The notes under the pieces: model-generated | Told to the model about the DNA's origin: nothing | Databases searched by the model: none | What the model saw: only the letters and a program-made list of their open reading frames with translations | Translations under genes and position numbers: made by a program | NCBI RefSeq assembly: GCF_009902005.1 | Contig: NZ_WUTT01000001.1 | Span: 2,986,805 to 3,050,804 of the forward strand | From: Halomonas alimentaria | Lineage (GTDB): Bacteria > Pseudomonadota > Gammaproteobacteria > Pseudomonadales > Halomonadaceae | Length of the DNA: 64,000 bases | Direction of reading: 5' to 3' | Part shown: in pieces, positions 1-13,144 of the stretch | Layout: each line of letters begins with the position of its first letter | Numbering within the stretch: position 1 is the stretch's first letter

Positions 1-1646
1 ACCCCTTCGCTCTCCATCAGCAGGCGATTGCCGAGCGCGATGTGGTGGCCGTCGATCCGGCCCGTCACGCCCTTGCCGTTGGGGGAGTCGAATTCCGTGG
101 CCTCCGAGAGGCTCACGCCATCGTCCTTGGCCTTGTCGACGATCGCCTGGGCGAGGGGGTGTTCGCTACCGCGCTCAAGCCCCGCGGCCAGTCGCAGGAG
201 TTCCTGAGCGTCGAAACCTTCGGCCGGGCGCAATTCGGTGACCCGCGGCTTGCCCTCGGTCAGGGTGCCGGTCTTGTCGACCACCACGGTGTCGACCTTC
301 TCCAGGCGCTCCAGCGCCTCGGCGTCGCGGATCAGTACCCCCGCCTGGGCCCCTCGACCCACGCCGACCATGATCGACATGGGAGTGGCCAGCCCCAGGG
401 CACAGGGGCAGGCGATGATCAGCACGCTGACCGCGGCGATCAGCCCGAAGGCCATGGGCGGTGCCGGCCCCCACAGCGACCAGGCGATGAAGGCCACCAC
501 CGCGACCAGGATCACCGCCGGCACGAAGACGCCGGCGACCCTGTCGGCCAGCCCCTGGATGGGCGCCCGGCTGCGCTGGGCGCTGGCCACCATCTGCACG
601 ATCTGCGACAGCATGGTGTCGCGGCCCACCTTGTCGGCGCGCATGATGAACGAGCCCTGGCCGTTGATGCTGCCACCGATCACGCCGTCGCCGGCCTCCT
701 TGCGCACCGCCAGTGGCTCGCCGGTGACCATCGACTCGTCGATGTTGGAGCGCCCCTCCAAGACCTCGCCGTCCAGCGGCACCTTGTCGCCGGGGCGCAC
801 GCGCAGGCGATCACCCACCTGGACCTTGTCGAGGGAGACTTCCTCTTCCTGGCCCTCGTCATCGAGGCGTCGCGCGTTGGCCGGGGCCAGGTCGAGCAGG
901 GCGCGGATTGCCCCGGAGGTCTTCTCCCGGGCTCGTAGCTCTAGCACCTGCCCGAGCAGTACCAGCACCACGATCACCGCCGCCGCCTCGAAGTAGACCG
1001 CCACCGAGCCGTCGGTCTGGCGGAAGGTCTCGGGGAAGATGCCCGGCACGATGGTCGCCAGCAGGCTGTAGACCAGCGCCGCCCCGGTGCCGATGGCGAT
1101 CAGGGTGAACATGTTGAGGCTGCGGCGCATGATGGAGCGCCAGCCGCGCACGAAGAAGGGCCTGCCCGCCCAGACCACCACCGGCGTGGCGAGCAGCAGC
1201 TGGATCCAGTTCGAGACTTGGGGGGCGATCAGGTGATCGAGGCCGAACACATGGCCGCCCATTTCCAGCACCAGCACCGGCAGTGCCAGGGCCAGCCCGA
1301 TCCAGAAGCGCCGCGTCATGTCCTTGAGCTCCTCGGAGGGCCCGGACTCGGCGGAGACCGTCTCGGGCTCCAGGGCCATGCCGCAGATCGGGCAGTCCCC
1401 CGGCCCCTCCTGGCGGATCTCGGGGTGCATCGGGCAGGTGTAGATCGTGCCGGGCGGCGCTGGCTCGGCCGGTGTGTCGTCGCACTGCAGGTAGGCGTCA
1501 GGGTCCCGCTTGAACTTCTGCTGGCACCTGGCTGAGCAGAAGTACCAGGTCTTTCCAGCGTGTGAGGCGCGGTGGTCGGTATGGTGAGGATCGACCGTCA
1601 TCCCGCAGACGGGGTCCGTGACCTCATGGGTGTGGTCCTGTGTCAT
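1..1646 (-). CDS. copA: Cu+/Ag+ P1B-type ATPase (partial, 3' end beyond window)
   Basis: Heavy-metal exporting ATPase of the inner membrane, expected to pump Cu+ or Ag+ out of the cytoplasm. The visible 548 residues begin with a YHS-type cysteine domain (DPVCGM near residues 11-16, FCSARC near 36-41). A heavy-metal-binding segment follows (YTCPMHPEI ... CPICGM), then membrane helices. The metal-site CPC motif is at residues 413-415 (IACPCALGLATP) and the phosphorylated Asp is 457 (DKTGT). The C-terminal ATP-binding part lies off the window. ATG at 1646 is preceded by a strong GGGAGGA ribosome site. The start overlaps the stop of the upstream permease by four bases (ATGA), so the two are probably translationally coupled. 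The YHS plus HMBD head replaces the usual CxxC-type HMA domain and is typical of the CopB/SilP-like branch, so copper versus silver preference is not settled. Confidence 0.93.
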   Translation of the reverse strand, partial: MTQDHTHEVTDPVCGMTVDPHHTDHRASHAGKTWYFCSARCQQKFKRDPDAYLQCDDTPAEPAPPGTIYTCPMHPEIRQEGPGDCPICGMALEPETVSAESGPSEELKDMTRRFWIGLALALPVLVLEMGGHVFGLDHLIAPQVSNWIQLLLATPVVVWAGRPFFVRGWRSIMRRSLNMFTLIAIGTGAALVYSLLATIVPGIFPETFRQTDGSVAVYFEAAAVIVVLVLLGQVLELRAREKTSGAIRALLDLAPANARRLDDEGQEEEVSLDKVQVGDRLRVRPGDKVPLDGEVLEGRSNIDESMVTGEPLAVRKEAGDGVIGGSINGQGSFIMRADKVGRDTMLSQIVQMVASAQRSRAPIQGLADRVAGVFVPAVILVAVVAFIAWSLWGPAPPMAFGLIAAVSVLIIACPCALGLATPMSIMVGVGRGAQAGVLIRDAEALERLEKVDTVVVDKTGTLTEGKPRVTELRPAEGFDAQELLRLAAGLERGSEHPLAQAIVDKAKDDGVSLSEATEFDSPNGKGVTGRIDGHHIALGNRLLMESEG

Positions 1647-3007
1647 GCTCCATCCTCCCTGCTGTGGCTGCCACTCGCGTCATGCGAATGAGCATGGTGG
1701 TCGGCGTCCTGCTCGGATCGCCGGGAAAGAAAGGCGTATTCCGCCACCAGGATGACGGCCATCGCGGCGGCGGCAACGTAGAGCACCAGCGGGTCGGTGG
1801 TGGCCTTGACCCAGAGGAAGCCTGCCAGCACCACCAGGTCGAGGGCGATCGCGGTCAGCAGGATGGCCGGGCGGGCCGCCACCGCATCGCGTAGATGCCG
1901 CAACACCCCCCAGTGAATGGCGATATCCATCACCAGATAGAAGATGATGCCGAGTGCCGCGATGCGGCTCAGGTCGAAGAACGCCGTCAGCAGCAGGCCG
2001 AGCACGATGGTATAGACCAAGGTGTGCTTCTGGATGCTGCCGGGCATATGGAAATGGCGATGGGGCACCAGCTTCATCTCGGTCAGCATCGCCAGCATCC
2101 GCGATACCGCGAAGACGCTGGCGATGATGCCACCTGCCGTGGCCAGCATGGCGAGCAGGACGGTGAACCAGACGGCGGCCTCCCCCAGCGCAGGGCGTGC
2201 AGCCGCGGCCAGCGAGTAGTCCTTGGTCGCGATGATCTCCGTCAGCGACAGGTTGCTGGCGACGGCGAGGCCCACCAGCGCATAGATCACCACGCACAGG
2301 GCGATCGAGACGATGATGGCCCGGCCGACGTTACGGTGGGGATCGCGGATCTCGGCCCCGCTGTTGGTGATGGTGGTGAACCCCTTGAAGGCCAGGATGC
2401 CGAGCGCGGTGGCCCCCAGGAACCCGGAGACGCCGGGCGCCGGCGCCTCGGCCGTGGCCCGGATACCGATGGTGTCGGCCACCAGCACGCCCACCACGCC
2501 GAACAGGATGATGCCACCGATCTTGATGACCCCCAGCACCGACGCCACGCCCTGGATCAGCTTGTTGGCGGAGAGGTTGATGAGGAAGGCGGCGATCAGC
2601 AGGCCGACACCCAGCGCCGGCACCAGCAGCGACCGGTTACCCCCATCGAACAGCTCCAGGGTATAGGAGCCGAAGGTCCTCGCCAGGAAGCTCTGGGCGA
2701 TCACCATGGAGAAGTACATCAGCAGCGCATGGAAGGCCGTGGGCAGGGTGGGCCCATAGGCCTTGTGAAGGTACATGCCGATGCCGCCGGCCGACGGGTA
2801 GGCATTGGACATCTTGACGTAGGAGTAGGCGCTGAAACTGACGATCATGGCCGCCGAGAGGAAGGCCAGGGGAAACAGCTCGCCGGTCATCTCGGCCATC
2901 TGTCCGGTCAGCGCGAAGATTCCGGCACCGATCATTACCCCGGTTCCCAGGGCGATGGCCCCGACAAGGCTAAGGCTGTTCTTCTGGTACTGGGGCGACC
3001 TGTCCAT
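1643..3007 (-). CDS. APC superfamily amino-acid permease-like membrane protein with His-rich tail
   Basis: A 454-residue polytopic membrane protein of the amino acid/polyamine/organocation (APC) superfamily. The N-terminus carries the family pattern GTGVMIGAGIFALTG, and about 12 hydrophobic segments follow. The cytoplasmic C-terminus (about residues 428-454) is rich in His (HHAHSHDASGSHS), which suggests metal binding. It is the first gene of a two-gene minus-strand unit and overlaps the P-type ATPase by ATGA. A MerR-type promoter lies about 80 bp upstream. The substrate is unknown. Family membership is seen in the sequence; a role in copper handling is inferred only from context and the His tail. 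Confidence 0.8.
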   Translation of the reverse strand: MDRSPQYQKNSLSLVGAIALGTGVMIGAGIFALTGQMAEMTGELFPLAFLSAAMIVSFSAYSYVKMSNAYPSAGGIGMYLHKAYGPTLPTAFHALLMYFSMVIAQSFLARTFGSYTLELFDGGNRSLLVPALGVGLLIAAFLINLSANKLIQGVASVLGVIKIGGIILFGVVGVLVADTIGIRATAEAPAPGVSGFLGATALGILAFKGFTTITNSGAEIRDPHRNVGRAIIVSIALCVVIYALVGLAVASNLSLTEIIATKDYSLAAAARPALGEAAVWFTVLLAMLATAGGIIASVFAVSRMLAMLTEMKLVPHRHFHMPGSIQKHTLVYTIVLGLLLTAFFDLSRIAALGIIFYLVMDIAIHWGVLRHLRDAVAARPAILLTAIALDLVVLAGFLWVKATTDPLVLYVAAAAMAVILVAEYAFLSRRSEQDADHHAHSHDASGSHSREDGA

Positions 3008-3088
3008 GCATCTCCTTGCGTGTCGGCCTTGGTGATGGGGAAGTGATCTGCTGGGCGCGGTTGGCCATCGGCAATGTGATCACTCCTC

Positions 3089-3120
3089 ATCCTAGAGCCC
3101 TTGTGTAACCCAAGGGTCAA
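3089..3120 (-). promoter_or_regulatory. MerR/CueR-type promoter upstream of permease-copA unit
   Basis: Read on the minus strand, a -35 TTGACC and a -10-like TAGGAT are separated by 20 bp. The spacer holds the dyad CCCTTG-N7-CAAGGG. Elongated 19-20 bp spacers with a central dyad are the hallmark of MerR-family activated promoters such as CueR and ZntR targets. No merR-like gene is visible in the window. Confidence 0.6.
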
Positions 3121-3145
3121 TCGGCACCCCTCGCCATCATCAAGG

Positions 3146-3484
3146 TCAGTGACAGCTCCAGGGCTTCTGCTTGGCATTGTCCTTCACGTTCTGGTCGATG
3201 AAGCGGTAATAGTCCTCCTTGATCCGGTTCCAACGTCCGGCGCCGATGTCTACGCCATGGCGTGCCAGTACCACCTCGATATCATCGATACACAATCGCT
3301 TGGCATCGTAGGCAAGGTGGAGTTTGCGATGTTCCGGGTCGTAGGACACGCGGTCGAGGCCACGCAGCGCGTCGATCTCGGTTACCGCCGCCGCGATATG
3401 CCCTGATGGACCGGGTGTTAGCTTCAGCGAGCGAGTGACCAGTGACGCTTGTGAAACGCCGGGGCGGTGATCGTGATGTGACAT
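3146..3484 (-). CDS. small HMA-like protein of the copper cluster
   Basis: A 112-residue soluble protein. The N-terminus MSHHDHRPG is His-rich. Residues about 18-75 look like a ferredoxin-fold HMA/heavy-metal-associated domain (a beta strand SLKLTPGP, then an alternating pattern ending in DDIEVVLARHGVDIG) but without the CxxC metal site. The C-terminus ends in KPWSCH, leaving one Cys and one His at the tail. It lies 30 bp after the DUF2933-like gene on the same strand, so both probably belong to the lgt unit. The function is unknown; a copper-chaperone-like role is inferred from context only. Confidence 0.65.
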   Translation of the reverse strand: MSHHDHRPGVSQASLVTRSLKLTPGPSGHIAAAVTEIDALRGLDRVSYDPEHRKLHLAYDAKRLCIDDIEVVLARHGVDIGAGRWNRIKEDYYRFIDQNVKDNAKQKPWSCH

Positions 3485-3514
3485 GCTCCACCTCCGTTCT
3501 GTACTAGCCGTGGT

Positions 3515-3718
3515 TCAGTTATCGTCGTCTTTGTCGTGACGGCCACCGTGGTGGCGGTGCAGGAAGAGATGCATCAGGGGGCAGGCGAGCAGCAGCAGCG
3601 GCAACGCCTGATAGAGGTGCAACCGATGGCCGGTCACCAACAGGTAGCCACCCACCGCGAGGAGGCCTGCCAGCGGCAGCCAGACCATCATCAGGCGGTG
3701 TTGTGCTCTCTTCTCCAT
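3515..3718 (-). CDS. DUF2933-type small membrane protein
   Basis: A 67-residue protein with two closely spaced hydrophobic segments (about residues 11-27 and 34-50). The tail is rich in His and Asp (HLFLHRHHGGRHDKDDDN). This layout matches the short DUF2933 peptides commonly found in copper and silver resistance loci. It sits between the lgt paralogue and the HMA-like gene, all on the minus strand. The His-rich cytoplasmic or periplasmic tail could bind metal; no function is established. Confidence 0.7.
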   Translation of the reverse strand: MEKRAQHRLMMVWLPLAGLLAVGGYLLVTGHRLHLYQALPLLLLACPLMHLFLHRHHGGRHDKDDDN

Positions 3719-3763
3719 GGCGACCTCCCGGTGGGTTGGCGTGTGAGTGGAGTCGTGTCGGCG

Positions 3764-4585
3764 TCAAGTCGATGGTCGGCTCGTTCTGGCCACCGCATCG
3801 AGCGGGTCTCGGCGCTGGGCTGCGAGCAGCAGGAGCAGTCCAGTCGCCACCATCGGCAGGGACAGCAGCTGCCCCATGGTGAGCCAATCGAAGGCGACGA
3901 AGCCCAGCTGGGGGTCGGGCAGGCGCACGAACTCGACCGCGAAGCGAAAGACGCCGTAGAGCATCAGGAAGAGCCCCGAGACGATGCCGCGTCGGCGCGG
4001 TCGGGTGGAGACCCACCACAGCACGACGAACAGCACCACACCCTCCAGGGCAAACTCGTAGAGCGCCGACGGGTGGCGTGGCGCCGAGCCCAACCCCATC
4101 ATGGACGGGAAGACCATCGCCCAGGGAACGTCGCTCACGCGTCCTGGCAACTCATGGTTGATGAAGTTGCCCAGCCGCCCGGCGCCCAGGCCAATCGGCA
4201 CCAGCGGTGCGATGAAGTCGGTCAGCTGGAGGAAGGCCAGGCGATGGCGGCGAGCGAACCACCAGGCGGCGACCAGCACGCCGGCAAGGCCACCGTGAAA
4301 GCTCATCCCGCCTTCCCAGAGCCTGAACAGCCAGAGCGGATCGGCCGCCAGCTGATCGAGGCCGTAGAAGAGCACATACCCCAGTCGACCGCCGAGGATG
4401 ATCCCCACCGCGCCATAGAAGATCAGGTCGCCGATATCGTCATGGGTGAGGCCGAGCCGGTGGGCACGTCGTCTGCCCAGCCACCAGGCTGCGGCCAGCC
4501 CCACCACGTACATCAGCCCATACCAGTGGATGCTCAGTGGGCCCATCGACAGTGCCACCGGATCGATCTGGGGGTAGGGGATCAT
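3764..4585 (-). CDS. lgt: prolipoprotein diacylglyceryl transferase (paralogue in copper cluster)
   Basis: A 273-residue polytopic membrane enzyme that transfers diacylglycerol from phosphatidylglycerol to the lipobox Cys of prolipoproteins. The signature is visible as [16 protein letters not shown], with the conserved arginine and Asn-Glu pair. The N-terminus [20 protein letters not shown] matches the family start. ATG at 4585 was chosen because AGGAG lies 7-10 bases upstream. A housekeeping lgt normally sits beside thyA, so this copy is probably an extra paralogue serving the copper island, but the other copy cannot be seen here. It starts a minus-strand unit with the DUF2933 and HMA-like genes. 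Confidence 0.92.
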
Positions 4586-4647
4586 GCGTCGCTCCTGTGA
4601 TGTGTCTGACCATCGCCGGTGGCCCGGCAACGGTTCCTGTTACCGCC

Positions 4648-4679
4648 AGTGTGGCGACGCTGTCTGAATCCAGGCTGAA
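4648..4679 (-). promoter_or_regulatory. predicted copper response-regulator box and promoter of lgt unit
   Basis: On the minus strand TTCAG-CCTGGA-TTCAG (4679-4664) is followed after exactly 10 nt by CACACT (4653-4648), a weak -10. The same layout recurs upstream of the multicopper oxidase and the cupredoxin genes. The 11-bp period of the direct repeat suits an OmpR/PhoB-family dimer. Confidence 0.55.
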
Positions 4680-4696
4680 CGCCATGGCCGAGACGA

Positions 4697-4710
4697 TTGA
4701 CACGGATCAA
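4697..4710. promoter_or_regulatory. FNR/Anr-like box
   Basis: TTGAC-ACGG-ATCAA differs from the FNR/Anr consensus TTGAT-N4-ATCAA at one base. It lies about 62 bp upstream of the start site implied by the -10-like sequence of the lgt unit, near the usual class I position of -61.5. This is a prediction from sequence only. Confidence 0.35.
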
Positions 4711-4736
4711 CCCAGGCTCGGATCGCCAAAGACGAC

Positions 4737-4758
4737 GACGCCACCAGGCGGTGGCGTC
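4737..4758 (-). terminator. hairpin terminator after copB
   Basis: A perfect 9-bp stem GACGCCACC/GGTGGCGTC with a 4-nt loop lies 22 bp beyond the copB stop. On the minus strand it is followed by GTCGTCTTTGG, a weak T-tract. It separates the copA-copB unit from the lgt promoter. Confidence 0.55.
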
Positions 4759-4780
4759 GGTCGCGAGACCGATTCGTGGC

Positions 4781-5551
4781 TCAGAACATCAGCCTGGCCC
4801 CGGCGACGATGCCGGTATCTTCGGTGGGATCGCCATGGTGGCGGGCGATGTCGGCGGTATCGCCGTACTGCTTCTGCCAGTAGGCACCGACATAGGGCGC
4901 AAGGCGGCGCGTCACCTCGTAGCCCAGGCGCATGCCGACGCGTACCGAGTTGAGCCCCTCGCCGACGCCGAATGCCTCGGCCTCGCTGGCGGCCACGGCG
5001 ATCTCGGTACGCGGCTGCAGGTAAAGCCGCTGGGTCAGGCGCAGGTCGTACTCGCCCTCGAAACTGGCCGAGACGTCGCCTTCGTCGCTGACCTGAAACG
5101 CCAGGTCGGTCTCGATGCCGTAGGGCATCACGCCCTGCAGGCCGATCACCCCATAGCCACGTTCGGCGTGGTCATCGGAGAAGACCCCACCCTGGTAACC
5201 GATACCGCCCTGCAGCTCCCAGAAATCGGCGATCAGCCGGCTGTAGAGCAGCTCCAGGGATTCGAACTCGGCATCCTCGCCATCGCCCTGGACGTTCTCG
5301 CCCTCGGACTTCAGGTAGACCCGGTTGATGTCCCCGCCGTACCAGGCCTGGAAGTCCCAGACCAATTCCTCATGACCCTTGTCGGGCACGGCATATTCAA
5401 GACGGTCGAACAGCGCCATGGCCATGTTGTGCTTGGCCATGGGGGCGGGCCAGTCCGCCGGCGCATCATAGCCATCCTCTGCCAGGGCGACGGAGAGCGG
5501 GAGCGTGGCCAGCAGGGCACCGGCCGCGATCATCGGGATTCTGGTATTCAT
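4781..5551 (-). CDS. copB: outer-membrane copper resistance protein CopB
   Basis: A 256-residue CopB/PcoB family protein. A signal peptide ends near residue 24 (SVALA|EDGYD), and the rest is rich in alternating amphipathic strands with a terminal Phe (ARLMF), as expected for an outer-membrane beta-barrel. It lacks the long Met/His-rich N-terminal extension of many CopB proteins, so this is a short form. It begins only 9 bp after the multicopper oxidase stop and shares its transcript. In the known systems CopB works with CopA in periplasmic copper sequestration and oxidation. Confidence 0.9.
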   Translation of the reverse strand: MNTRIPMIAAGALLATLPLSVALAEDGYDAPADWPAPMAKHNMAMALFDRLEYAVPDKGHEELVWDFQAWYGGDINRVYLKSEGENVQGDGEDAEFESLELLYSRLIADFWELQGGIGYQGGVFSDDHAERGYGVIGLQGVMPYGIETDLAFQVSDEGDVSASFEGEYDLRLTQRLYLQPRTEIAVAASEAEAFGVGEGLNSVRVGMRLGYEVTRRLAPYVGAYWQKQYGDTADIARHHGDPTEDTGIVAGARLMF

Positions 5552-5560
5552 GGCGTCTCC

Positions 5561-7348
5561 TTACGCGACCTTGACGACCCGGAACATGCCGGCGTCCATG
5601 TGATAGAGCAGGTGGCAGTGGAAGGCCCAGCTGCCCTCGGCATCAGCGGTGATCAACGCCGAGACGCGCTCGCCGGGCTTGATGTTCAGGGTGTGCTTGC
5701 GCGGGATCAGCTCGCCCTGGCCGTTCTCCAGCTCCATCCACATGCCGTGAAGGTGGATGGGGTGTTCCATCATGGTGTCGTTGACCAGGATCAGGCGCAG
5801 CCGCTCGTCCTTCTCGAAGTGAATGGGGCCCGTTACCTCGCTGAACGTCTTGCCGTCGAAGGACCACATGTAACGTTCCATGTTGCCGGTGAGGTGTAGC
5901 TCCAGCTCGCGGCCGGGTTCACGGCGGTCGGGCCAGGGGGTGAAGGCCTTGAGGTCGCGGTAGACCAGGGTGCGGCGTGCGTTGGGATCGATGCCGATGC
6001 CGGCCTGGTCATAGCGCGAGCCCGGCTGGGCCTCTCCCGCCGCCAGCATGCCGTTCCCGCGGGTCTTGGCGGATTCCCTCGCCATGCTGCCGCCATGGTC
6101 CATCTCGGAATGATCCATGCCCTCCCTGTCATCGCCGGACATGTTGGAATGATCCATGCCCTCCATGTCACTGTCGGACATGCTGGAGTGGTCCATGCCA
6201 TGGGCACCCATGGCCTCCATGCCGCGGTCGGCGATCCTGCGACGCTCGGGGATCTCCGCGGCCATGCCCTCCCGCGGTGCCAGGGTCGCGCGGGCATAGC
6301 CGCTGCGATCCATCGATTCGGCGAAGATCGTATAGGCGGTGTCGTCCTCGGGGGCGACCAGCACGTCGTAGGTCTCGGCCACCCCGATGCGGAACTCGTC
6401 CACCGGGACCGGCTGCACCGGCTGACCGTCGGCGGCCACCACGGTCATCTTGAGCCCTGGGATGCGTACGTCGAAGTAGGACATTGCCGAGCCATTGATG
6501 ACCCGAAGGCGGATCCGTTCGCCGGCCTTGAACAGCGCCGTCCAGTTCTCCTCGGGAGAGTGGCCATTGAGCAGGTAGGTGTAGGTGCTGCCGGTGACGT
6601 CGGCGATGTCGCGTGAGCTCATGCGCATCTTGGCCCACATGCCGCGCATCTCCGCCGTCGCCGCAAAGCCCTTCTCGCGCACGTCGGCGAAGAAGTCGCC
6701 GATAGTGCGTTCCTGGAAGTTGTAGTACCCCTCGGCGGTCTTGAGGTTGCGGAACACCGCCATGGGATCCTCGAAGGTCCAGTCGGTGAGCAGCAGCACG
6801 TGCTCGCGATCATAGCGGAAGGGTTCGCGCTCGGCGGCGTCGATGATCAGTGGCCCGGCATGGCCGAGCTGCTCCTGAAGGCCGGAGTGACTGTGGTACC
6901 AGTAGGTACCGTTCTGGCGTACCGGGAAGCGGTAGGTGAAGGTCTCACCGGGGGCGATGCCGGCGAAGCTGACGCCGGGAACGCCATCCTGGTCGGGCGG
7001 CAGTATCAGGCCATGCCAGTGGATGGAGGTCGGCTCATCGAGCAGGTTGGTCACCCTGAGCACGGCATCCTGGCCCTCCTTGAGCCGGATCATCGGCCCG
7101 GGGCTCTCGCCGTTGATGGTGTAGGGCCGCGCCGCCTGACCATCGATCTCAAGCGACTCGCGACGGATGGCAAGCGCCACCTCGGGGCCTTCCTCGACTC
7201 CCTTGGCGTAGACATTGGTCTGCCCCCATGGATCGGCCCAGGCCGGGCGCAGGCCAAGGGCAGCCGCCGAGCCGATGCCCAGGGCAGCACCCCCCTTGAG
7301 CAGCCGCCGGCGCGACAGCGGCTGCGTAATGACGCTGGAACGTGCCAT
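5561..7348 (-). CDS. copA: periplasmic multicopper oxidase CopA (copper resistance)
   Basis: A 595-residue CopA/PcoA-type multicopper oxidase thought to oxidise Cu+ in the periplasm. ATG at 7348 gives a clear twin-arginine signal (LSRRRLLKGG at residues 11-20, cleavage near AWA|DP). Copper ligands are all visible: HWHG at 110-113, YHSH at 151-154, HPIHLHGMW and HCHLLYHMDAGMF near the end. Residues about 377-422 form a Met/His-rich insert with repeats of the type MEGMDHSNM, likely to bind Cu+. It precedes copB by 9 bp and has its own response-regulator box upstream. It is unrelated to the P-type ATPase that often shares the name copA. Confidence 0.96.
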   Translation of the reverse strand: MARSSVITQPLSRRRLLKGGAALGIGSAAALGLRPAWADPWGQTNVYAKGVEEGPEVALAIRRESLEIDGQAARPYTINGESPGPMIRLKEGQDAVLRVTNLLDEPTSIHWHGLILPPDQDGVPGVSFAGIAPGETFTYRFPVRQNGTYWYHSHSGLQEQLGHAGPLIIDAAEREPFRYDREHVLLLTDWTFEDPMAVFRNLKTAEGYYNFQERTIGDFFADVREKGFAATAEMRGMWAKMRMSSRDIADVTGSTYTYLLNGHSPEENWTALFKAGERIRLRVINGSAMSYFDVRIPGLKMTVVAADGQPVQPVPVDEFRIGVAETYDVLVAPEDDTAYTIFAESMDRSGYARATLAPREGMAAEIPERRRIADRGMEAMGAHGMDHSSMSDSDMEGMDHSNMSGDDREGMDHSEMDHGGSMARESAKTRGNGMLAAGEAQPGSRYDQAGIGIDPNARRTLVYRDLKAFTPWPDRREPGRELELHLTGNMERYMWSFDGKTFSEVTGPIHFEKDERLRLILVNDTMMEHPIHLHGMWMELENGQGELIPRKHTLNIKPGERVSALITADAEGSWAFHCHLLYHMDAGMFRVVKVA

Positions 7349-7378
7349 CTGTGACTCCCGTCGATGTTGGAAGGCGAC

Positions 7379-7410
7379 ATCATGACGGGGCAAGCTGAAT
7401 CGGGCCTGAA
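7379..7410 (-). promoter_or_regulatory. predicted copper response-regulator box and promoter of copAB
   Basis: On the minus strand TTCAG-GCCCGA-TTCAG (7410-7395) is followed after 10 nt by CATGAT (7384-7379), a plausible -10 (4 of 6 to TATAAT). Spacing is identical to the boxes at 4648-4679 and 9939-9970. It lies in the 71-bp gap between the kinase gene and the oxidase. Confidence 0.6.
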
Positions 7411-7419
7411 AAGGTCAGG

Positions 7420-8751
7420 TTACGCAGCGTCCAGCGTGAAGGGCACGTGAATCTCCACACTCAGACCGCCCAGTGCGCTATGCCCGAAGCGGACCTTCCC
7501 GGCATAGCGCTTCAGTAGCTGGTTCAGGATCGACAGGCCCAGGCCATAGCCGGGATGCGCCTCGTCCAGGCGCCACCCGCGCTCACCGAGACGAGCGAGA
7601 TCATCCTCTGCGACTCCGGGACCATCATCCTCGACGCGCAGGGTAAGGCCACCCTGAAGGCCTATCTCGCAGTGAACCTCCTGATTCGCCCATTTGCCGG
7701 CATTGTCGAGCACGATACCGATCATCTCCGACAGGTCCTGAGACTCGATGGGAATGCGCTGTCCGGTGCCTTCGGCTATCTCCAGGGTGAAGCGCTTGGC
7801 CGGGTAGAGGGTCCGGAACATCTCGATCAGTCGGTTGGCGTCGCGACACGGATCGGCAAGGCGCCCGGCATTGGGACCCGCGATGCGCGAGCGGCGAAGT
7901 TCGACATCGAGCTGAGCGTGAATCTCCTCCAGGCGCTCCTCCAGGCGTTGGCGCCGCGCGGCATCGATGGGTCGGGAGCCGCGCAGCACCTGAATGACCG
8001 CGGCCAGAGGTGTCTTCAGCGCGTGGGAGAGGTTGGCAACCGACTCTCGGGAGCGCTGCAGGCGGCCATCGATCTCGTCCATGAAGCGGTTGAGCTGCCC
8101 GACCAGGCTGTCGAGCTCGGAGGGGACATCCAGGGAGAGGCGGTCGCGCTTGCCGGCCTGCAACTCACCGAGCTGGTGGCGCAGCCGTGACAGCGGCACC
8201 ATGCCCCGACTGACGGCCAGCAGGTTGAGCACCACCAGCAGGAGCAGCAGGCTGGCGGCGATGCCACCGACCCACCAGTGCAGACGATGAAGGCCCGCCT
8301 CGACCTGGGAGAAATCTTCGCCGATCAGCAGCACCCCCTGTTGGTCGTCGAGGGTGAAGGGCTGGCGGAAGACCAGCAGGTGCTGTCCCGCCTCACGCAC
8401 CTCGGCCAGCGACTCGTCGCTGGACAGCAGAGGCAACAGCGCCTCCTGCCAGCGTGGGTGAGAGGCCGAGACCTCATCGCCCAGGCGCAGCACATAGAGG
8501 TGATGGAAAATCGCGAAGCCGCGGCTGGCAGAGTCCAGGACTCGGGCGGTGGCCAGGTGATCACGGCGCAGTTGCTCGATGGCGTGATCGGCTTCGCGTT
8601 CGAGCCGTTCCCCCAGGAAGTCCCGCGCCAGGTCGTTGAGCAGGATCCCGTGCAGTAGCCAGGTCAACCCGGTGACCAGCAGGGCGATACCCGACAGCCA
8701 GGCCAGCAAGCGGATTCGCAGGCTGCGACGATCAATCCGCAACAAAGACAT
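7420..8751 (-). CDS. sensor histidine kinase, copper-cluster two-component system
   Basis: A 443-residue membrane kinase. It has a transmembrane segment near 16-36, a periplasmic sensor of about 120 residues, a second segment near 159-180, a HAMP-like linker, an H-box NLSHALKTPLA with phospho-acceptor His243, and an ATPase domain (VLDNAGKWA N-box, VEDDGPG, GYGLGLSI). The SHALKTPL form of the H-box resembles PhoQ/QseC-type kinases. Its start lies inside the 3' end of the response-regulator gene (20-bp overlap). Sensing of periplasmic copper is inferred from its place between the regulator and copAB, not from ligand residues. Confidence 0.88.
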   Translation of the reverse strand: MSLLRIDRRSLRIRLLAWLSGIALLVTGLTWLLHGILLNDLARDFLGERLEREADHAIEQLRRDHLATARVLDSASRGFAIFHHLYVLRLGDEVSASHPRWQEALLPLLSSDESLAEVREAGQHLLVFRQPFTLDDQQGVLLIGEDFSQVEAGLHRLHWWVGGIAASLLLLLVVLNLLAVSRGMVPLSRLRHQLGELQAGKRDRLSLDVPSELDSLVGQLNRFMDEIDGRLQRSRESVANLSHALKTPLAAVIQVLRGSRPIDAARRQRLEERLEEIHAQLDVELRRSRIAGPNAGRLADPCRDANRLIEMFRTLYPAKRFTLEIAEGTGQRIPIESQDLSEMIGIVLDNAGKWANQEVHCEIGLQGGLTLRVEDDGPGVAEDDLARLGERGWRLDEAHPGYGLGLSILNQLLKRYAGKVRFGHSALGGLSVEIHVPFTLDAA

Positions 8752-9397
8752 AGCCCTGGCCGCGACGGGTCTGGATGCTTGGTTTGCCCAGGTGACGGCG
8801 CAGCCGCGCGATGTACACCTCGATGAGATTGGGTGCCGCGGCGTCCTGCTCCAGGGCGTAGAGCTGGTTGAGGAGGTGCTCCTTGGAGAGCACGCGCCCC
8901 GGATGATGCATGAAGTAGCGCAGCAGCACGAACTCGGTGCCTGTCAGCGGGTGCCAGGGGCCATCGGCCACACGGACGCACTGGTTGGCCTCGTCCAGGG
9001 AGACATCACCCAGCGTCAACTGACTGGAGAGTCGCCCCGATTGGCGGCGCAACAGTGCCTTGACCCGGGCGATAAGCTCGGCTTCGTGGAAGGGTTTGGT
9101 CAGGTAGTCATCCGCGCCGCCTTCGAGCCCGACGACCTTGTCTTCCCAGGTGTCCCGAGCCGTCAGGATCAACACCGGCAGGTCGCGGCCCGACTGGCGC
9201 CACCGCTTGAGCAGGTCGAGACCCGAGCCATCGGGAAGGCCCAGGTCCATGATCGCCAGCGCATAGGTCTCGGTCGTCATAAGCGCCTCGGCGATTCTCA
9301 GAGACGTGGCCAGGTCGACCCGGTAACCGTTGTCCTTGAGGGATTCGGCGAGGCTCTCGGCCAGCAAGTCGTCATCTTCGAGTAGCAAGAGCTTCAT
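8732..9397 (-). CDS. OmpR/PhoB-family response regulator, copper cluster
   Basis: A 221-residue DNA-binding response regulator. The receiver domain shows the acidic pocket EDDD at 7-10, phospho-acceptor Asp51 (IMDLGLPDGSG) and Lys101 (LTKPF). The winged-helix domain follows from about 125 (LTGTEFVLLRYFMHHPGRVLSKEHLL ... VYIARLRRHLGK ... RRGQGYVF). ATG at 9397 was chosen because the receiver fold starts there. It lies 8 bp after the cupredoxin gene and overlaps the kinase. It probably binds the three TTCAG-N6-TTCAG repeats in this island (inference). Confidence 0.92.
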   Translation of the reverse strand: MKLLLLEDDDLLAESLAESLKDNGYRVDLATSLRIAEALMTTETYALAIMDLGLPDGSGLDLLKRWRQSGRDLPVLILTARDTWEDKVVGLEGGADDYLTKPFHEAELIARVKALLRRQSGRLSSQLTLGDVSLDEANQCVRVADGPWHPLTGTEFVLLRYFMHHPGRVLSKEHLLNQLYALEQDAAAPNLIEVYIARLRRHLGKPSIQTRRGQGYVFVAD

Positions 9398-9405
9398 GCG
9401 TCGGC

Positions 9406-9906
9406 TCACTTGCCCAGCTGGATCTCGCCGACCATGCCGGACTCGGAGTGTCCCGGGATGTTGCAGGCATAGACGAGCGACTCCACGTCGGCGGGGGCGG
9501 TCCACACCAGCTCTGCGGTGTCGCCGGGCGCGATGGTTACCGCCGGCATCTCGCCGCCATGCGCACCTTCCGCCATGTCATGGCCGCCATGGCCGTCGTG
9601 GCCGTCACCATGACCACTGTCTCCCATAGCCTGCATCATCTCGCGGTGCGCTTCCTGGGCTGCGGCATCGCCGATCACGAATTCGTGCTTCAGGTTGCCG
9701 GTGTTGACTACCTTGAAGCGCACAGTCTCTCCAGCGGTGATGCCGAGTGTCTCGGGATCAAACCACATGTCACCGGCCTCGACCTGGATGGTGCGGTCGA
9801 CCTCGGCATCTGGCGCTGTAGCGTGAGAACCACCATGTTCACCGGCAGCAAGGGCGGAAGTGGCGGCCAGGCAAAGGGTGATGGCCAGCAGTGACTTGCG
9901 CATCAT
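9406..9906 (-). CDS. periplasmic cupredoxin-domain protein with His/Met-rich insert
   Basis: A 166-residue exported protein (signal ending near SALAAG). The fold is plastocyanin-like, with type-1 copper ligands visible as His74 (NLKHEF), Cys148, His153 and Met158 (ACNIPGHSESGM). Between the strands lies a His/Met/Gly insert (about 93-120, with GHGDGHDGHGGH) that could bind extra copper. It is the first gene of the cupredoxin-regulator-kinase unit. ATG at 9906 or 9903 would both give a good signal peptide. It probably acts as a periplasmic copper carrier or store. Confidence 0.88.
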   Translation of the reverse strand: MMRKSLLAITLCLAATSALAAGEHGGSHATAPDAEVDRTIQVEAGDMWFDPETLGITAGETVRFKVVNTGNLKHEFVIGDAAAQEAHREMMQAMGDSGHGDGHDGHGGHDMAEGAHGGEMPAVTIAPGDTAELVWTAPADVESLVYACNIPGHSESGMVGEIQLGK

Positions 9907-9938
9907 GGAACCTCTTTGATCGTATCAGGGGAGCATTG

Positions 9939-9970
9939 GTTATACCGCAGCAACCTGAAATGAGACTGAA
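9939..9970 (-). promoter_or_regulatory. predicted copper response-regulator box and promoter of cupredoxin-TCS unit
   Basis: On the minus strand TTCAG-TCTCAT-TTCAG (9970-9955) is followed after 10 nt by TATAAC (9944-9939), a good -10 and the best of the three copies. This suggests autoregulation of the two-component system. Confidence 0.62.
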
Positions 9971-9981
9971 CTCGAAACCTC

Positions 9982-10013
9982 TTGACCCTTGTGTAACGCG
10001 CAGGTTGTAGCAT
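9982..10013 (+). promoter_or_regulatory. MerR/CueR-type promoter of the small copper-protein unit
   Basis: TTGACC and TAGCAT are separated by 20 bp, the layout seen on the other strand at 3089-3120. The 12-mer CCCTTGTGTAAC is present at both sites (9986-9997 and 3098-3109). The internal dyad is weaker here (CCTTG...CAGG). Confidence 0.5.
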
Positions 10014-10114
10014 CCAAGGGTCTGATGAAGGCCATGCCGAATCCCTTGTCCTGGATCATGTCGGACGACACGACCACCAAGGCAGAATGGGGCCTCGACT
10101 ATGAGGATGACCGA

Positions 10115-10417
10115 ATGACCTGCAATGTTCGCTACCTGCTGCACACCCGAGGAGTACGCCTGATGGCGTTGCTACTCGCGGTATTGCTGCTGGTCGCCAG
10201 CCTGCCCGGTCATGCGACCATGGACGCCTGCGCCGTCGACTGTGGCACATCCCAGGTCGAGATGCTCGATCATACCGTCGCCGACTGCGGCGCCTGCGCG
10301 GCATTGACCGCCACGCCGATTGTCCCCCGCGTCCCTCCGGACGCTCTTGTAGACCTGGCCGACCCAGCCGTGGTCGAGTTCATCGCTGCACCACCCCGAG
10401 AACCTCCCAAGTCCTGA
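10115..10417 (+). CDS. small exported Cys-containing protein, copper cluster (CopL/DUF2946-like)
   Basis: A 100-residue protein with a signal-anchor or signal peptide (LMALLLAVLLLVASLPGHA). A short Cys-rich segment follows, with CAVDC and CGAC (MDACAVDCGTSQ ... VADCGACAAL). ATG at 10115 has AGGA eight bases upstream and lies downstream of the predicted start site; earlier in-frame starts at 10025 or 9989 lack this. Its size and form resemble the small DUF2946 or CopL proteins of copper loci, but I do not assign it firmly. The Cys pairs may bind Cu+. Confidence 0.55.
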   Translation: MTCNVRYLLHTRGVRLMALLLAVLLLVASLPGHATMDACAVDCGTSQVEMLDHTVADCGACAALTATPIVPRVPPDALVDLADPAVVEFIAAPPREPPKS

Positions 10418-10490
10418 CGTCGCTCGACTTCCCGGTAACGACGTATTGGCTCGTTATCGGCGCCCCCTTTCTTTCGTCAGGAGTCACATC

Positions 10491-10643
10491 ATGTACGCCA
10501 ACGATTGCTTTTCCCTGATGGGGTCAATGGGTTGGATGGGCTGGCTGATGCCCTTGACCGTCATGCTTCTGCTCGGTCTCGGCATTGCCGTTCTCGCCAA
10601 GTACCTCTTCACGTCTCGTCGGTCTCGGGAGGATCGCTCATGA
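10491..10643 (+). CDS. 50-residue Met-rich membrane miniprotein
   Basis: A very small protein with a Met/Trp-rich N-terminus (LMGSMGWMGWLMP), one membrane helix and a basic-acidic tail (SRRSREDRS). CAGGAG lies eight bases before ATG 10491. The stop overlaps the start of the DUF411 gene by ATGA, so the two are coupled. The Met-rich segment is consistent with Cu+ contact; the function is unknown. Confidence 0.65.
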   Translation: MYANDCFSLMGSMGWMGWLMPLTVMLLLGLGIAVLAKYLFTSRRSREDRS

Positions 10644-12190: not shown

Positions 12191-13144
12191 TTGCCGTTGC
12201 CCAGCGTCGGACTGATCCTTTACCCGAATATCAGTCCCTTCCATTTCTCGGTGCCCTATACGGTGTTCGGTATGGCCTTGCCCGATCGCCCACTGTTCGA
12301 TCTGTCCATCGTGGCGCTGGAGGGGAAGCCGCTGGCGGCCGAGCGGGCGATGACGGTACGGCCCGACGGCGGCCTGGAGCTGCTGGACCGGGTGGATATC
12401 GCGGTGGTGCCTGGCTGGCATGACCTGAATGAAGCGCCGCCGCCAGAGCTGGCCGAGTCGCTCGTCCGGTGTCATGAGCGGGGTGCCCATGTGGTGGGAC
12501 TCTGTTACGGCACCTATGCCCTGGCTTACGCCGGGCTGCTGGACGGTAGGCGGGCGTCGACTCACTGGATGGCCGAGCAGGATTTCATCGGCCGCTTTCC
12601 CAGAGTCAAGCTGGATACCAATGCGCTCTACGTGGAGGAGGATCGTCTGGTGACGTCTGCCGGTACCGCGGCCGGCCTGGATTGTTGCTTGTTCCTGGTG
12701 CGTGAATATTACGGCGCGCAAATTGCCAACAAGGTGGCCCGGGCCATGGTGGTCCCACCGCATCGAGAGGGTGGGCAAGCGCAGTTCATCGAGCAGCCGG
12801 TTGCTACCTCTACCCAGGACGCCCACATCAACCGCCTGCTCGACTACCTGCGAGAACACCTGGCGGAGTCGCACACCATCGATGCGCTTGCCACCCGTAC
12901 CGCCATGAGTCGGCGGACCTTCACGCGCCACTTCCACAAGGCCACCGGCATGACGGTGGTGGAGTGGCTGGTGAGCGAGCGGCTGCGGCGTGGACGCGAG
13001 CTGTTGGAAACCACCTCCTTGTCGGTAGAGGCCATTGCGGAAAGGGTCGGTTTCCACACGGCGACATCGTTTCGGCAACATTTCAGGCAGCGGCATCGGG
13101 TCAGCCCCCGCGACTGGCGAAAGACCTTCGGCGAAAGCACCTGA
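12191..13144 (+). CDS. GlxA-type AraC-family transcriptional regulator (DJ-1/PfpI head)
   Basis: A 317-residue regulator. Residues about 1-190 form a DJ-1/PfpI-like domain, with the nucleophile-elbow-like segment HVVGLCYGTYALA. The C-terminal 100 residues are an AraC helix-turn-helix pair (LATRTAMSRRTFTRHFHKATG ... AIAERVGFHTATSFRQHFRQRH). The start is a TTG at 12191: AGGAG lies 7 bases upstream, and a stop at 12164 with no ATG between them leaves no alternative. It is divergent from the MBL-fold gene. The inducer is unknown. Confidence 0.88.
   Translation: MPLPSVGLILYPNISPFHFSVPYTVFGMALPDRPLFDLSIVALEGKPLAAERAMTVRPDGGLELLDRVDIAVVPGWHDLNEAPPPELAESLVRCHERGAHVVGLCYGTYALAYAGLLDGRRASTHWMAEQDFIGRFPRVKLDTNALYVEEDRLVTSAGTAAGLDCCLFLVREYYGAQIANKVARAMVVPPHREGGQAQFIEQPVATSTQDAHINRLLDYLREHLAESHTIDALATRTAMSRRTFTRHFHKATGMTVVEWLVSERLRRGRELLETTSLSVEAIAERVGFHTATSFRQHFRQRHRVSPRDWRKTFGEST

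Follow-up and report, generated by a model that had tools for sequence, protein, structure and literature searches.

The known copper and silver response regulators bind inverted repeats (excerpts of PMC12428095, PMC11195947, PMC7380067); this includes those of CopRS, CusRS, PcoRS and AgrRS. A different kind of operator is described for BqsRS of Pseudomonas aeruginosa, also named CarRS, in which the reported signal of the kinase BqsS is Fe2+ (excerpts of PMC12666569). The BqsR operator is the direct repeat TTAAG-N6-TTAAG, BqsR is described as an activator, and its pentamers are also arrayed at the same spacing, with the most downstream one overlapping the -35 element in the promoter dissected (excerpts of PMC4682146). 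Here we analyse a window of 64,000 nucleotides from Halomonas alimentaria (contig NZ_WUTT01000001.1, positions 2,986,805 to 3,050,804), in which three transcription units of a copper gene cluster are each headed by a TTCAG-N6-TTCAG box and one of the units encodes a response regulator and a sensor kinase. Like the BqsR operator, the box is a pair of direct pentamers separated by 6 nt, the downstream one in the -35 position. Unlike BqsRS, the pentamers are TTCAG instead of TTAAG (third base C, not A), the targets are copper genes, and the kinase carries His34, His83 and His158. The locus shares with CopRS, CusRS, PcoRS and AgrRS a two-component system adjoining copAB and a box ahead of its own operon, but the box is a direct and not an inverted repeat. 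The cre/blr tag of CreBC/BlrAB, TTCACN6TTCAC, also comprises direct pentamers with a 6-nt spacer and matches four of the five bases; the last base of the pentamer is G in the window, not C, and the target genes are others. We found no open-access paper containing the box as an exact string or joining BqsR or CarR with copper and Halomonas, and no paper on this system by title among the matches listed from the wider literature.

The window contains three exact matches to TTCAG-N6-TTCAG, all on the minus strand and exactly where the initial annotation had placed them. Box 1 (TTCAG-CCTGGA-TTCAG, 4679-4664) lies upstream of the unit lgt-DUF2933-'HMA', box 2 (TTCAG-GCCCGA-TTCAG, 7410-7395) upstream of copA-copB, and box 3 (TTCAG-TCTCAT-TTCAG, 9970-9955) upstream of cupredoxin-regulator-kinase. 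The proposed -10-like hexamers are likewise in place, each exactly 10 nt past its box: CACACT at 4653-4648, CATGAT at 7384-7379 and TATAAC at 9944-9939, with 3/6, 4/6 and 5/6 identity to TATAAT. Direct pentamer repeats set 11 bp apart and ending 10 nt ahead of the -10 hexamer constitute the class II direct-repeat layout. In 100 dinucleotide shuffles of the window the mean number of boxes was 0.07, and none of the shuffles reached three. The three-box observation is thus confirmed as real.

The box is conserved in orthologous loci. Using the response-regulator protein alone, we fetched 78 loci (70 proteobacterial, 8 actinobacterial; individual loci are designated by L and a number). At least one exact box on the regulator's strand is present in 69 of the 70 proteobacterial loci, at least two in 64 and at least three in 26, and no box was found in the 8 actinobacterial loci; as many of the genomes are related, box counts are not independent events. 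When TTCAG pairs were counted at every spacing from 0 to 23, the regulator's strand had 166 hits at spacing 6 and no more than 8 at any other spacing; the opposite strand had 6 hits at spacing 6. TTCAG with its complement ranked first of all 1024 pentamers at spacing 6. We placed 175 boxes, including the three of the window: 53 precede a cupredoxin gene, 52 copA and 9 lgt, and the remainder the regulator gene, DUF411, CopB, a permease or other genes. The cupredoxin and copA promoters gave the same tally, each among 63 loci containing the gene and its upstream region: 51 with an exact box, 5 with one mismatch and 7 with none close. The conservation in copAB promoters of relatives that the initial annotation had suggested looking for is therefore borne out. 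Most of those 7 loci are rearranged, with a box before DUF411 or the regulator gene instead. Among nine orthologous lgt promoters, seven have an exact box, one has a box with one mismatch and one has none close.

The promoter geometry is conserved as well. We scored similarity to TATAAT at each of 19 offsets past the second pentamer, counting identical 60-nt promoter stretches once and using four classes, to the exclusion of the smaller ones (regulator, DUF411, CopB, HMA, DUF2933, permease). Offset 10 was the best in all four classes, with mean matches of 4.55/6 for cupredoxin (47 distinct promoters), 3.39/6 for copA (46 distinct promoters; next offset 2.50), 3.29/6 for lgt (7 distinct promoters; next offset 2.43) and 3.69/6 for the others (29 promoters); the next best offset reached 2.28 to 2.50 across classes. 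A normally spaced -35 hexamer would fall across the box.

The exact box occurs five times in the whole 3.29-Mb genome, compared with once for the reversed pattern, and the two copies outside the cluster both lie within open reading frames (ORFs) of a mechanically generated list. With up to one mismatch there are 76 sites genome-wide versus 45 for the reversed control, an excess that is not fully explained. A -10-like hexamer (at least 3/6) at +10 accompanies 7 of the 72 such sites outside the cluster, and the background rate, determined from 27 loci of relatives described below, is 11%. A wider regulon in this genome with one mismatch allowed was therefore rejected, and the regulon appears limited to the cluster's three promoters; unrelated loci do not carry the repeat at the same frequency. 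The window contains another one-mismatch site, at about 13071-13086, which is inside an ORF on the plus strand (12191-13144) and does not belong to the set of 72. In 41 Halomonadaceae genomes, the box combined with YANNNT at +10 gave 47 hits in 23 genomes and a single hit for the reversed control; this composite pattern does not fit the window's own TATAAC promoter. The small number of sites in the window, the shortness of the words and the somewhat raised genome-wide count of one-mismatch sites are what can be said for the boxes being an artefact of chance or composition, a reading that the shuffles, the reversed controls, the spacing scan and the conservation refute and to which we give practically no credence.

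The response regulator of the cluster (8732..9397, minus strand) matches PF00072 (receiver) and PF00486 (Trans_reg_C) above cut-off, which places it in the OmpR/PhoB family. Against TIGR01387, the model for CopR/CusR/PcoR/SilR, it scores only 147 bits (cut-off 279.2). For the whole protein, PmrA is both the best NCBIfam match and the best full-length match in the PDB. The receiver domain finds PhoP first and CarR second in the PDB, and the DNA-binding domain alone has a single match below 1e-15, to entry 9yfa, named CarR (E 8e-22). Two identities were considered and rejected: PmrA/BasR, because the score is below cut-off (211 vs 330 bits) and CarR is the closer match for the DNA-binding domain by itself; and CreB/BlrA, considered on account of the tag TTCACN6TTCAC, because the score is 147 bits against a CreB cut-off of 273 and the pentamers end in G. 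No regulator in the whole genome exceeds the cut-off for the CopR/SilR/CzcR family, which makes the local regulator the natural candidate binder, as the initial annotation had proposed. The comparisons support the view that it is the best candidate and that it is probably BqsR/CarR-like, not of the CopR/CusR/PcoR type. They also suggest that this copper regulator may derive from a lineage otherwise known for iron sensing.

Eight proteins in the genome, including the local regulator, match the superfamily model over its full length, so the boxes could in principle be bound by another OmpR/PhoB-family regulator, a paralogue or a partner in cross-talk, with the local regulator serving other targets. 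We consider this unlikely, as the boxes accompany this lineage of regulators in different families and in rearranged loci, and in seven loci (L054, L066, L068, L071, L072, L074, L075) a box stands before the regulator gene itself.

At copA loci, the type of operator goes with the type of regulator. In two other families of the order we found ten loci (L185, L187-L195) with copA and a regulator 52-55% identical to that of the window, nine of them with a recognised cupredoxin. Their TTCAG boxes lie between the two transcription directions, and nine of the ten loci have one exact box in each direction. A search of the order matched copA in 40 genomes, and 30 of these supplied the 34 copA stretches of our contrast set. 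A regulator was recognised in 14 stretches: nine contain a CopR-type regulator that is 37-41% identical to the window's, three a BqsR-like one (L135, L139, L142), and two are from Halomonadaceae (L148, L149). An exact box is present in none of the nine CopR-type stretches and in all three BqsR-like ones; L148 has one and L149 does not. Conversely, a palindrome of the ATTACA or ATGACA type with at most one mismatch lies within 1600 nt of copA in seven of the nine CopR-type stretches and in none of the 25 others. The other two CopR-type stretches have a palindrome with two mismatches, as do some stretches without a recognised regulator; one of the two, L125, fits CTGACAn5GTAAT, which is quoted as the P. 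aeruginosa CopR consensus (excerpts of PMC11195947). All seven CopR-type regulators tested score above the TIGR01387 cut-off (L117 and L137 were outside the test). L123 combines the two regulator types and lacks an exact box. For L086, the locus of the window itself, a strict search for ATTACA-N4-TGTAAT or TGACA-N4-TGTCA within 400 nt upstream of copA, the one promoter of the three that was scanned, found no palindrome.

Regulators about half identical to that of the window are found in many families of the class and the order. A search of the class gave 75 matches outside the Halomonadaceae, and we read 27 of their loci (regulators 49-56% identical). These contain 16 TTCAG pairs at spacing 6, 5 at spacing 17 and no more than one at any other spacing up to 19; 12 of the 16 are followed at +10 by a -10-like hexamer. 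We also read 39 loci without copper-gene matches in the flanks covered (about 1.5 kb for most). In these, TT[AC]AG pairs occur 32 times at spacing 6, 10 times at spacing 17, 6 times at spacing 7 and at most 3 times at others up to 19, and eight control words at spacing 6 gave 0 to 3 pairs. The pairs at spacing 17 fit an array from which one pentamer is skipped. A -10-like hexamer at +10 follows 25 of the 32 pairs at spacing 6. Counted without a filter on -10 likeness, 12 of the 32 mix TTCAG and TTAAG and 2 have TTAAG twice. The genes behind the boxes of L153 encode a cytochrome b561 and a PepSY protein; further such neighbours in relatives were read from sequence only. Because relatives away from copper genes carry the same layout, the box is not confined to copper genes. 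As a side observation, L153 has four TTCAG pentamers at 11-bp steps (961-1049) before the cytochrome b561 gene, back to back with the box of the PepSY gene.

The sensor histidine kinase (7420..8751, minus strand) distinguishes the copper-linked systems from these relatives. Kinases of 380-520 aa and regulators of 205-260 aa were retained (95 and 100, including the window's, then 128 and 139); in L059 the frame is broken. We chose 71 rows, 21 of them from Halomonadaceae, for a tree of the regulator and kinase combined, and 69 remained after L060 and L175 were removed for length. In this tree, which is unrooted and was made by a quick method, the 31 copper-linked rows are on one side and the 38 others opposite, with a support of 100 in the Shimodaira-Hasegawa-like approximate likelihood ratio test; no row is known to be P. 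aeruginosa BqsRS. Without a root, the tree does not show whether copper control was gained or lost. Three histidines are diagnostic of the copper-linked lineage. Among 118 kinases (the set of 128 less those from copA stretches; copper-linked kinases were assigned by lineage), His34 is present in 80 of 80 copper-linked kinases, His83 in 78 of 80 and His158 in 80 of 80, compared with 0, 0 and 2 of the 38 others. Judged from the hydrophobic stretches, His34 and His158 appear to sit close to where the two membrane helices reach the periplasm. CopS binds Cu+ at its dimer interface through His41 and His140, within a sensor fragment comprising residues 34-151 (excerpts of PMC7763554); the similarity to the window's kinase is one of kind and not an alignment. 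In a structure search with the whole kinase, the matches were filled by the catalytic domain. The sensor part alone (mean predicted local distance difference test score of the model, 83) retrieved many Cache/PDC-like sensor domains. The silver-bound CusS sensor 5ku5 was among the tied top rows (Z 10.5, root-mean-square deviation 3.3, 119 aligned residues) but was not singled out.

The signal might be something other than copper, such as ferrous iron, silver or envelope stress, with the copper genes forming part of a broader metal response. The Fe2+ sensing reported for BqsS/CarS, the nearest characterised relative (excerpts of PMC12666569), is an argument in its favour, as is the presence of an lgt paralogue among the targets. 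On the other hand, the only sites in this genome with a box and a -10 hexamer above background are those of the copper cluster, and the copper-linked kinases group together and have extra histidines in common. We regard a signal other than copper as fairly unlikely.

The explanation that best accounts for the box, its geometry and conservation, the nearest lineage and the pairing of box type with regulator type is that a copper-linked, BqsR/CarR-like two-component system activates the three units through TTCAG-N6-TTCAG, and we consider it highly probable as a whole. Periplasmic copper would be sensed by the adjacent kinase, probably via His34 and His158 near the membrane boundaries, plus His83, and the kinase would then phosphorylate the regulator encoded at 8732-9397, whose operator the box would be. 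Each pentamer is predicted to be occupied by one regulator molecule, the two molecules being oriented head to tail and offset by one helical turn (11 bp). Of the pentamers, the downstream one would take the place of the -35 element, 10 nt before the -10 hexamer, and from this position the regulator would recruit RNA polymerase as a class II activator. The targets would be its own operon, cupredoxin-regulator-kinase (positive autoregulation), copA-copB and the unit led by lgt. The reading of the cluster as a copper two-component regulon, made in the initial annotation, draws support from the conservation of the box and its rarity elsewhere; binding and copper induction are parts of it that we infer. 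Since the box overlaps the -35 region, it could also seat a repressor, with the regulator blocking RNA polymerase until released by copper. This is very improbable given that BqsR, whose operator has its pentamers arranged in the same way, is reported to activate (excerpts of PMC4682146), and given the fixed distance from box to -10 hexamer, as expected for contact with the polymerase.

Several observations count against activation by a copper-linked, BqsR/CarR-like system. Promoters 1 and 2 have weak -10 hexamers. A scan of 3000-10600 gave no consensus sigma-70 promoter, which is little evidence because only 0.9 would be expected by chance. Two loci with a regulator 65% identical, L055 (Kushneria) and L149, lack an exact box, although L055 has one box with a single mismatch, and the composite of box and YANNNT is absent from 18 of the 41 Halomonadaceae genomes. 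L186, the copper-linked row that branches first under midpoint rooting, has no exact box and only TTCAG-N6-TTCAC. The copper-linked rows are one lineage with near-copies, so that boxes and histidines are not independent events. Among the 39 loci away from copper genes, a TT[AC]AG pair is present in 21 and none was found in the other 18 within the flanks read. Finally, the organism of PDB entry 9yfa, the match of the DNA-binding domain to CarR, is not given.

The three units are encoded on the minus strand, and all gene labels of the initial annotation hold with one exception, 'HMA'. The cupredoxin (9406..9906; PF00127, PF13473) is CopI-like but falls below the NCBIfam cut-offs for CopI (119 and 86 bits vs 280 and 200). 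CopA (5561..7348) is a multicopper oxidase that scores 800 bits with TIGR01480 (cut-off 479), and CopB (4781..5551; PF05275) is an outer-membrane protein. A terminator-like hairpin (4736..4759; 10 pairs, 8 of them G-C) follows copB ahead of box 1, for which reason the lgt unit is probably separate; the region has three terminator-like sites, compared with 2.4 in shuffles. The lgt gene (3764..4585) encodes a prolipoprotein diacylglyceryl transferase (TIGR00544, 272 bits, cut-off 118.9). The genome has a second copy elsewhere, so the lgt of the cluster is a paralogue. It is followed by a DUF2933 protein (3515..3718; PF11666) and by the small 112-aa protein called 'HMA' (3146..3484), for which no Pfam or NCBIfam model matched at E 0.001. 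This small protein is found again in the copper clusters of relatives.

Further genes were noted around the cluster and behind boxes in related loci. In the window, an APC-family permease gene (1643-3007, minus strand) overlaps by 4 bases the start of a P-type ATPase gene (3-1646, minus strand), which encodes E1-E2_ATPase, YHS and HMBD domains and continues beyond the window edge. In L028, L030 and L142, a TTCAG box is located 116-134 nt ahead of the same APC-family permease, which may be a member of the copper regulon. Downstream of copB, a box also precedes the gene for a protein of about 140 aa in L051 (2196), L054 (10674), L061 (10924), L062 (10712), L063 (10642) and L064 (10678); the protein of L062, the only one tested, has no Pfam family. 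In L023 (11336), L025 (11258), L036 (10948) and L050 (8284), a box lies 35-88 nt before a gene for a DcaP-like outer-membrane protein (Pfam match from L023 only), and in L032 (3583), L034 (3688), L036 (3302) and L042 (3629) one lies 188-284 nt before a CopC-like gene (Pfam match from L032 only).

Copper is known to disturb lipoprotein maturation in E. coli, and some Gram-positive bacteria have lipoprotein-modifying genes within their copper operons. That an lgt paralogue stands behind the box of the cluster suggests that the copper response may extend to lipoprotein maturation. For the evolution of the system we propose, with evenly balanced confidence, that a lineage of the BqsR/CarR type, found elsewhere beside cytochrome b561 and PepSY genes and in one known case sensing Fe2+, was recruited once as a copper sensor. 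The kinase would have gained the three histidines with hardly any change to the operator, and the system would have replaced palindrome-binding CopRS control of copAB in at least three families, one of them the Halomonadaceae, and brought a second lgt into the copper response. The locus would offer a natural case in which the operator was seemingly kept while the sensed metal changed, with three candidate residues in the kinase. It also provides, for a large group of halophiles, a testable operator of copper control; the copA loci of this group, as sampled here, are without a textbook CopR-type regulator. Annotation of the regulator as PmrA-like or generic would miss the system.

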